Source: Halomicrobium urmianum
GTDB lineage: Archaea; Halobacteriota; Halobacteria; Halobacteriales; Haloarculaceae
Direction: 5' to 3'
Assembly: GCF_020217425.1 (NCBI RefSeq)
Contig: NZ_CP084090.1
Location: 3,100,001 to 3,164,000 of the forward strand
DNA length: 64,000 bases
The notes under the pieces are model-generated. The model saw nothing but the letters and a program-made list of their open reading frames with translations, ran no database searches and was not told where the DNA came from. The position numbers and the translations under genes were made by a program. Of this stretch, positions 37,206 to 42,363 are shown one piece after another (within the stretch, counting starts at the first letter, position 1; every line of letters begins with the position of its first letter).

Positions 37206-37670
37206 TCACCGCGCCGGCGGGTTGTACTCGCTGGGCAGCACCACGCGCCGGAGGACCGTTCCGAGGGAGGCGAAGAAGCCGCCCGCGAGGGCGTACACCG
37301 GCACCAGCATGACGATGCCGAGCATCCCGATCAGCGAGGAGACGAGCAGGAACGCCTGTCCGGAGGCGCTGAACCAGAGCGCGAACGACCCGACGCCGAC
37401 CACGACGCTGACCAGCGCCATCCCGACGCCGCCGGCCCTCACGCCGTAGGCGAACGCGTCCACTGGGTTGGTCCCGAGGGCGACGCCGGCGACGAACCCG
37501 GCGACGGCACCGCCCGCGTAGGTGACGGCGGTCGGCAGGTCGAGCACCGTCCCCGCGACCACCATCGCCAGCGTGTAGAGGGCCGCGACGCCGACCCCGA
37601 GGACCGACACGCGCCACCGCTTCCCGAAGGTCGTGCGGACGGCGTCCCGCCTGAAGCGATTCCAGTTCAT
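37206..37670 (-). CDS. DUF5518-like four-helix membrane protein
   Basis: 154 residues. A basic N-terminus (NWNRFRRDAVRTTFGKRWR) is followed by four hydrophobic segments: LGVGVAALYTLAMVVAGTVL, VTYAGGAVAGFVAGVALG, GVGMALVSVVVGVGSFALWF and AFLLVSSLIGMLGIVMLVPVYALAGG. The GGAVAGFVAG... NPVDAFAYGVRAGGVGM pattern is typical of haloarchaeal glycine-zipper membrane families such as DUF5518. No function is known. Confidence 0.7.
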   Translation of the reverse strand: MNWNRFRRDAVRTTFGKRWRVSVLGVGVAALYTLAMVVAGTVLDLPTAVTYAGGAVAGFVAGVALGTNPVDAFAYGVRAGGVGMALVSVVVGVGSFALWFSASGQAFLLVSSLIGMLGIVMLVPVYALAGGFFASLGTVLRRVVLPSEYNPPAR

Positions 37671-40879: not shown

Positions 40880-41230
40880 TCAGTATCGCTCGTACGCCTC
40901 CAGAACGAGCGCTATCGCCAGCCCGCAGACCAGCACGCCGGCGATCAGTTCGGAGGTCAGCCGCGACAGCAGGAACTCCGGGAACGCCACGTACAGCGGT
41001 GCGACGAAATCGATGGCGAAAAACCTGCCCGCGACGCCGAGCGCACCGCCGAGGACGTTGATCTCCGGCGGGAGTTCGATGGTTCGGGCCATACGGCGTG
41101 CGGCGGGGAACGAGAGCAGGAACGCCAGGGTCAGCGCGGCGAACAGCGAGCGGACGAGTCGCGCGTACGCCTTCAGGTAGTGATTTCGGCCGCGTGACAC
41201 TGGCGGCACGTCGGGGCCGGCGGCCCTCAT
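40880..41230 (-). CDS. Small two-helix membrane protein, tandem paralogue 4 (last of array)
   Basis: 116 residues. The shared N-terminal signature SRGRNHYLKAYARLVRSL is followed by a first helix (FAALTLAFLLSFPAA), a roughly 50-residue loop with its own hydrophobic patch (EINVLGGALGVAGRFFAIDFVAPLYVA), and the C-terminal helix with ELIAGVLVCGLAIALVLEAYERY. It is the most divergent member: the loop is more hydrophobic and the basic C-terminal tail is missing. Its ATG overlaps the previous stop by four bases. Unknown family. Confidence 0.72.
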   Translation of the reverse strand: MRAAGPDVPPVSRGRNHYLKAYARLVRSLFAALTLAFLLSFPAARRMARTIELPPEINVLGGALGVAGRFFAIDFVAPLYVAFPEFLLSRLTSELIAGVLVCGLAIALVLEAYERY

Positions 41231-41583
41231 CTGTCCCGACCCCCGCTTCGCTTCCGGGCTTCTACGACGAGCGTGCACACCAGTCCGCCCAGCAGAACGG
41301 CGACGAACGGCACCGACGTGAACGCGGCTGTCTGTTCGTGATAGAAGTCGACGTATGGCGTCGGTCCGGGTAGATTTATCGGCGGTTCGTGAGGGATGCC
41401 CCCATACACACTGAACCAGGTGCGATGCGTCTGGTATCCGTACCTCGGGCTGTCTATCAGCCCGCCGAGGAGGACCACCGCTGGGACGGCCAGTCCGAGC
41501 GAGACGACGAGCCGTCGGTAGGCGGCGACGTGTCTGTTTCGTCCCCGCGGCGTGGCCTGCGGCTTCGATTTGATGGTCCTCAT
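41227..41583 (-). CDS. Small two-helix membrane protein, tandem paralogue 3
   Basis: 118 residues. Signature PRGRNRHVAAYRRLVVSL, helix 1 LGLAVPAVVLLGGLI, a polar loop rich in Tyr, Pro and His (SPRYGYQTHRTWFSVYGGIP, then PPINLPGPTPYVDFYH), helix 2 VPFVAVLLGGLVCTLVVEA and a basic tail RKRSGGRDR. Predicted topology is both ends in the cytoplasm with the loop outside. ATGA overlaps on both sides tie it to its neighbours. Function unknown. Confidence 0.75.
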   Translation of the reverse strand: MRTIKSKPQATPRGRNRHVAAYRRLVVSLGLAVPAVVLLGGLIDSPRYGYQTHRTWFSVYGGIPHEPPINLPGPTPYVDFYHEQTAAFTSVPFVAVLLGGLVCTLVVEARKRSGGRDR

Positions 41584-41936
41584 GGTTCTCGACGCCTCAC
41601 GCGCTCGTGGATCTCCAGCGCGACAGTGCAGAGCAACCCGATGACGAGGAGCGCAACTGTCGGATCGTAGGAGAGTCGCGCGATCAAGAAATCCGCGAAA
41701 CCGTGAACGAGCGGTGCATCGTAACGGAACGTGATCGACTCGGCGAAGCCGTGGCTGTGCCGCCAGAAGGGACTCTTCTGATAGTGCCTGACGAACGCGG
41801 CTAACCAGTTTGTGGCGATGACTTGGAACGAGATGAACGAGGCCACGAACAGGACTGCTACACCGCGAGCGAACGCTTTGACGTGCCAGTACCGACCTCG
41901 CGGCATCGCCGGCGGTCTCGGTCTCGTGGTCGTCAC
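41580..41936 (-). CDS. Small two-helix membrane protein, tandem paralogue 2
   Basis: 118 residues. Signature PRGRYWHVKAFARGVAVL, helix 1 FVASFISFQVIATNWLAAFV, an outer loop with YQKSPFWRHSHGFAESITF and DAPLVHGFADFLIARLSYD, helix 2 PTVALLVIGLLCTVALEI, basic tail HERVRRREP. The C-terminal helix motif LLCTVALE matches VCTLVVE and VCTVVVE of the neighbouring paralogues. The ATG overlaps the previous stop by four bases. Confidence 0.75.
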   Translation of the reverse strand: MTTTRPRPPAMPRGRYWHVKAFARGVAVLFVASFISFQVIATNWLAAFVRHYQKSPFWRHSHGFAESITFRYDAPLVHGFADFLIARLSYDPTVALLVIGLLCTVALEIHERVRRREP

Positions 41937-42313
41937 GGTGAGGTCTCCCGTCTCCGCTGGCGCATCTCCACGACCACTGTGCAGACGAAACCGCCGACGA
42001 GGACGGCCAGGATCGGTTCGTACGAGAACACTCTGACGAGGTAGTCGTCGAGACTCGCGATATACGGTATCCCGACGGCGTCTGTCAGCACTGGGTACTT
42101 CGCAGCCATCTCGGCGGCCCGTTCGGGGTACAGAAGCGGATTGAAGCCGGTGGCGCGCGTGAACGTATCGACCGCGTTCGCGGCGATGACGAAGTGTGCG
42201 ATCGCTGCGACGAGGCCTATCGCTCCGACCGCACGCAGGTACGCTCTGACGTGCCAGTTCCGGCCGTCCGCGATGGCGCGCGGCCGCGGAGTAGCGCCTG
42301 CCATTGATCGCAT
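41933..42313 (-). CDS. Small two-helix membrane protein, tandem paralogue 1 (first of array)
   Basis: 126 residues (or 123 from the ATG at 42304). Signature DGRNWHVRAYLRAVGAIG, helix 1 LVAAIAHFVIAANAV, outer loop with TRATGFNPLLYPERAAEMAA and the YIASLDDYLVRVFSYEP block that parallels DFLIARLSYDP in paralogue 2, helix 2 ILAVLVGGFVCTVVVEM, basic tail RQRRRETSP. It is the first gene of four linked by ATGA overlaps, 50 bp after the udp stop, so it may have its own promoter in that gap or be read from the udp-cdd transcript. Confidence 0.75.
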   Translation of the reverse strand: MRSMAGATPRPRAIADGRNWHVRAYLRAVGAIGLVAAIAHFVIAANAVDTFTRATGFNPLLYPERAAEMAAKYPVLTDAVGIPYIASLDDYLVRVFSYEPILAVLVGGFVCTVVVEMRQRRRETSP

Positions 42314-42363
42314 CCAGTATCGACCAGATGAAAAGGTTTGTGACGGACTATCATTCCGGACCG

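Follow-up and report, generated by a model that had tools for sequence, protein, structure and literature searches.

A tandem array of two-helix membrane proteins in Halomicrobium urmianum, probably related to the N-terminal domain of DppB-type dipeptide permeases

Four overlapping paralogous genes

The stretch of Halomicrobium urmianum DNA analysed here (64,000 nucleotides, hereafter the window) carries on its minus strand four open reading frames, placed head to tail between positions 40880 and 42313 and comprising 126, 118, 118 and 116 codons. Gene 1 (41933-42313, minus strand, 126 amino acids) has a possible alternative start at 42304; gene 2 (41580-41936, minus strand, 118 amino acids) begins with GTG; gene 3 (41227-41583, minus strand, 118 amino acids) is without a clear form of the helix-3 motif described below; and gene 4 (40880-41230, minus strand, 116 amino acids) is, of the four, the nearest to homologues found in Halosimplex. 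Each gene overlaps the following one by 4 nt on the minus strand, with the letters GTGA at the junction of genes 1 and 2 (41933-41936) and ATGA at those of genes 2 and 3 (41580-41583) and genes 3 and 4 (41227-41230). A first-pass annotation had described four genes of 116-126 codons joined by identical ATGA overlaps: the sizes and the overlaps hold, while the identity does not, since only two of the three junctions read ATGA. A possible, weak TATA-like element, TTTTCA, was noticed by eye on the minus strand at 42329-42334. With respect to the ATG at 42304 it occupies positions -30 to -25, a distance that would suit a leaderless start at this second ATG, and gene 1 would then encode 123 amino acids.

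The array frames are very likely coding, because homologues exist in other genera and because their third-position GC content (GC3) is 0.75-0.85 with a GC2 of about 0.5. GC3 reaches 0.96 in two other minus-strand genes of the window. That the four genes are paralogous, as had been proposed, is borne out by a likeness above chance: with gene 1 as a query against its own whole genome, gene 2 is recovered at an E-value of 2e-14 and gene 3 at 5e-8. Gene 4 is 25% identical to gene 1 and 38% identical to a Halosimplex homologue (L099). A profile built from all four found no further copy in this genome beyond the array. Elsewhere in the window (37206-37670), between agmatinase-like and epimerase-like genes, lies another membrane protein, of 154 amino acids, without a Pfam match.

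A membrane hairpin with three conserved elements

The layout given in the first-pass annotation, with a basic N-terminus, one helix, a loop and a C-terminal helix, was recovered in full by hydropathy analysis. Each protein opens with the basic signature G-R-[NY]-x-[HY]-[VL]-x-A-[YF] and continues with a first membrane segment (TM1), from which a 45-54-residue loop leads to another one (TM2) near the C-terminus. Alignment with relatives reveals a third conserved element, absent from the earlier description, in the form of a helix immediately before TM2. Its consensus is about P-[YFL]-x3-F-x-[DE]-[FY]-L-[VIL]-[SA]-R-[LVF]-[TS], near P-[YF]-x-F-x-F-x-[DE]-F-L-V-S-R-[LV]-T-S-P; it is clear in genes 1, 2 and 4 and in the relatives, and blurred in gene 3. 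The corresponding stretch of gene 4, and of a few relatives, is hydrophobic enough to score as a membrane segment itself. In gene 1, hydropathy places TM1 at residues 26-44 (42182-42238, minus strand) and TM2 at residues 99-117 (41963-42019, minus strand), and the pre-TM2 helix occupies residues 84-96 (42026-42064, minus strand).

The N-terminus is positively charged, the loop near neutral and the C-terminus neutral to positive, and this pattern therefore predicts that both ends lie inside, the proteins forming N-in/C-in membrane hairpins. The structures predicted by AlphaFold2 for gene 1 and for a Halosimplex homologue reach modest confidence (mean pLDDT 71 and 64, respectively). They begin with a long helix, which is followed by one or two short ones, by the pre-TM2 helix and by TM2; in gene 1 the helices span residues 20-55, 63-72, 74-80, 84-96 and 99-124. 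A Foldseek search of solved structures with these modest-confidence models returned nothing significant and no DppB, and VIA-align gave middling helical matches only.

Family libraries and the DppB N-terminal domain

Scans of Pfam and NCBIfam gave no convincing match, and those of PHROGs and PADLOC only weak and scattered ones. Tgi2PP, DUF6251, TrgA, Cas4 and REase_II, all weak matches of single members, were dismissed, as was interleukin-3, the sole PDB sequence match to the profile (E 1.7), which we attribute to chance. Among papers searched for small membrane proteins, for the scoop loop and for Halomicrobium, none was found to describe such arrays. The earlier statement that no described family has these features thus stands as far as library scans go, and has to be amended at the level of profile-profile comparison, where a relative appears: the N-terminal domain of DppB-type dipeptide permeases.

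This relative came to light in a class-wide search with a profile of 20 members, in which the matches below the true members were mainly the first 90 residues of such permeases (twelve of these weak matches were read individually). Aligned with hhalign to DppB N-termini partly chosen by that same search, a sample biased in favour of a match, the family scored 44.7 (probability 92.5), against a maximum of 20.4 in 60 shuffles. With 20 DppB N-termini chosen by PF19300 only, the 20 members still aligned over 75 columns with a score of 34.6 (probability 76, E 2e-5), and the best of 100 local column shuffles reached 16.6. When full-length DppB was cut into slices, the N-terminal one scored 39.1, the next, overlapping it, 24.6, and the others 9-13. 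The register is the same in separate subsets: the window's four proteins alone align 19-98 with 3-78 of the DppB N-terminus, and the Halosimplex members alone 17-91 with 3-77. Each of the two helical elements, taken by itself, finds its own counterpart, TM1 that of DppB and the pre-TM2 helix DppB alpha-3; in gene 1 TM1 and the pre-TM2 helix are so aligned, and TM2 matched no DppB counterpart. The other copies of the genus, taken alone, do not match (score 12.4). DppC N-termini, also considered as relatives, gave no score (three sequences only).

The resemblance to BPD_transp_1_N (PF19300) is one of layout as well as of profile. Both have a TM1 with a basic N-terminus and, beyond an external segment of similar length, a conserved helix that precedes the following membrane segment; this helix reads P-x-x-x-Q-[YF]-x-x-[YF] in DppB and has its counterpart in the array proteins. 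In profile comparison a single register is kept for about 70 columns. The scoop motif of E. coli DppB (residues 32-62, between TM1 and alpha-3) sits in the cleft of DppA, the peptide-binding protein (PMC12136057). A haloarchaeal DppB N-terminus aligns to the solved E. coli DppB chain (8z1v). The variable loop of the array proteins falls at the position where the scoop enters the peptide-binding protein. The scoop stretch proper yields no sequence match, the likeness being carried by its flanks.

There are also differences. The array proteins are below Pfam detection: none of the 20 members matches PF19300 at E-values up to 10, and a search of the genome with PF19300 does not list the array, its curated cut-off not being reached. 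The PGDP/PGGP motif which most DppB N-termini carry after TM1 is absent from all members aligned. The permease core PF00528, readily matched in DppB controls, is not matched in the array proteins, which are free-standing and tandem, possess a single TM2 directly after helix 3 and end after it, at about 109-138 amino acids. Because this core is absent, the array proteins are not permeases.

It may be asked whether the likeness to DppB could have arisen by convergence, since small membrane proteins of haloarchaea may often combine a basic first helix with an amphipathic one that rests on the membrane. A panel of 123 slices of 33 families bears on this question, with the reservation that only 16 of them are membrane-like, which makes for a small background. 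Setting the family itself aside, the DppB N-terminus scored 30.4 over 69 columns, and the N-terminus of a DoxX-like protein also rose above background, with 28.1 over 29 columns, located over helix 3 and TM2; all others stayed at or below 16.9. The DoxX-like hit and the loop middle, which matches nothing in DppB, are what convergence would account for; it accounts poorly for two separate segments matching in one register in independent subsets, and for controls (shuffles, DppB slices and the 123-slice panel) that are otherwise clean. We regard convergence as rather unlikely, and favour shared ancestry with the DppB-type N-terminal domain, to which, on these profile comparisons, we would give a probability of about 0.75.

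The second likeness, to the DoxX-domain protein, is weaker, and could reflect shared ancestry or convergence. The N-terminal segment of this haloarchaeal membrane protein (L048:7864-8895 and its orthologues) resembles helix 3 plus TM2 over 29-32 columns, through a stretch reading 'FL..LT.P.VVGPL.AG'; with an independent sample, in which five sequences were usable, the match was weaker (probability 32). The protein is otherwise much larger, with many helices and a signal-like N-terminus, and the likeness is limited to one short stretch. That stretch falls outside the DoxX domain itself (PF07681), which has no match in array members. The genome analysed here has its own DoxX-domain protein, outside the window (G000:C1:3070165-3071142).

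Distribution and genomic neighbourhoods

Few genomes have relatives of the array, and almost all of these genomes belong to a single family, the one that includes Halosimplex. Homologous arrays do exist in other genomes, as the first-pass annotation would lead one to expect, in Halosimplex, in species of the same genus and in a single genome from a different family, and the survey of copies and neighbours which it had called for shows that both number and site vary. Within the genus, copy numbers are 4 (our genome, G000), 1, 1, 0, 0, 3 and 2 for G000 to G006, one of the two genomes without a copy being incomplete. In two of these species a single copy occupies the site that the array has in the window, between NADH-dehydrogenase-like and nucleoside phosphorylase genes; in a further species devoid of the array the genes that flank it in the window are only 47 bases apart. 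The copies of two others, 2 in one and 3 in the other, lie at another site, between gyrA and an agmatinase-like gene (L040:8284-8969 and L044:9121-10201), which gives the cassette two sites no more than a few kilobases apart. In Halosimplex species the copies, one or two in number, are flanked by a gene for a helix-turn-helix-like regulator and by a lipoate-ligase-like gene (names read from the sequences of the neighbours, not from profile matches), and the genome from the other family has two copies, between pterin-dehydratase-like and uvrA-like genes. In three relatives a subtilisin-like protease gene lies just before the NADH-dehydrogenase-like gene (L041:5512-7359, L042:10497-12380 and L105:3-1295); the window has no such gene at that place, so that on this side, too, what surrounds the array site is variable.

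Wherever neighbours could be read, the array genes are co-directional with the gene just upstream, and other genomes, too, repeatedly show them just behind a housekeeping gene. No locus examined had dppACDF genes beside the array, the neighbours being housekeeping genes or others. A second genome of the different family just mentioned, which belongs to the same order, has a member split over two frames (L058, G429:C5:20834-21013), either a pseudogene or a sequencing error. Weak matches in G315, G328, G403, G425 and G509 were discarded as artefactual, their reading frames being interrupted by stops; in the one of these five that was read (L062), a ribosomal-protein-like frame covers the place.

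These numbers bear on the idea that the four proteins are subunits of one hetero-oligomer, in which diverged paralogues would be made in a fixed ratio by coupled translation and be placed side by side, the loops composing a common outer face, with a function unrelated to peptide import. The tandem paralogues with 4-nt overlaps at all three junctions, and the two to three adjoining genes seen in G005, G006 and G297, are what such an assembly would lead to; copy numbers that range from 0 to 4 within a genus and include single copies show, however, that no fixed stoichiometry is required, and we take this arrangement to be unlikely.

Rates of evolution and exchange of the loop

The family evolves fast in some lineages and only mildly fast in others, as dN/dS is 0.85 between the single copies of G001 and G002 (neighbouring genes: 0.02-0.10) and 0.30-0.38 between Halosimplex copies, against 0.22-0.25 in the adjoining ligase-like gene; other closely related pairs give 0.29-0.60. 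Loops had been thought to diverge more than helices. This is so among the paralogues, and fails as a general rule among orthologues, where the contrast is inconsistent. A hypervariable loop under positive selection was likewise rejected as a general feature, loop dN being zero for G090/G092 and high elsewhere.

A mosaic is seen among the copies of G006. At its ends this gene agrees with one of the G005 copies (24 of 24 bases in some blocks), and in its middle, approximately alignment columns 96-215, not with this copy but with its G005 sister (24/24, 21/24 and 21/24 in consecutive blocks). We interpret it as a probable gene conversion in which the loop was exchanged; recombination of a copy in the G005 lineage would give the same picture.

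Two further explanations must be weighed here. The genes may take part in a conflict, as immunity or exclusion proteins blocking a toxic peptide or a virus that enters via a peptide importer or its binding protein. Presence or absence at the same site, exchange of loops between copies and the ratio of 0.85 between G001 and G002 all go in this direction. Against it, the queries tried retrieved no relative from viral contigs or plasmids, PADLOC matches were isolated and weak, no toxin gene was recognised nearby and in Halosimplex the evolutionary rate of the copies is only slightly above that of the ligase-like gene next to them, which makes a conflict role improbable in our view. Alternatively, the array could be an expansion of weakly constrained paralogues, which would have a minor selected function or none and be tolerated where they lie, behind housekeeping genes. 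Its GC3, lower than the 0.96 of the two other window genes, the high dN/dS of one pair and the split relative L058 would all fit; yet four diverged copies have kept their open frames and overlaps, dN/dS remains at 0.29-0.60 in other closely related pairs and the motifs are conserved across genera, so that we find this explanation, too, doubtful.

A possible accessory to peptide uptake

The array belongs to a real family without a name. Its tandem proteins of two helices are new in being free-standing, and are most likely related to a known domain. Coming back to ancestry shared with, or derivation from, the first domain of DppB-type permeases, we may picture what these hairpins would do. Each would comprise TM1, an external scoop segment, an interfacial helix corresponding to alpha-3, then a single TM2 standing in for the permease core. 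As one membrane helix stands in place of everything after alpha-3, there is neither a channel nor a contact with the ATPase, and the proteins are incapable of transport and of ATPase coupling. Translational coupling would link the amounts of the four proteins. As a mode of action docking seems the likeliest: their external segments may touch peptide-binding lipoproteins, or the permease itself, and thereby modulate peptide uptake, different loops serving different partners.

That the proteins are stand-alone, scoop-like hairpins modulating peptide-binding proteins or permeases is a tentative proposal, which we consider plausible without expecting it to prevail. Small membrane proteins that modulate transporters exist as a general class, and the array proteins share with them the form of short hairpins devoid of catalytic parts; we know of no sequence relation to that class, and of no tandem diversified array related to a permease domain. 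A simple rule of one scoop per importer was rejected, as the numbers of DppB genes in G000 to G006 (4, 7, 6, 4, 7, 3 and 4) do not follow those of array copies. The variable copy number of the relatives and the one swapped outer segment suggest a fast-changing accessory to peptide uptake as a candidate function. A more elaborate version, where the scoop domain was made free-standing and tandem, its loops being swapped by recombination, so that a small set gates several peptide-binding proteins or importers, is a long shot.

Were this right, a domain otherwise known only from importers would work alone, as an exchangeable set of modulators, and such control of peptide uptake has, as far as we know, not been described in archaea. 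The array also offers a testable handle on a family without a name which family libraries miss, and it reminds us that profile-level relatives of pieces of transporters can hide in short membrane open reading frames.
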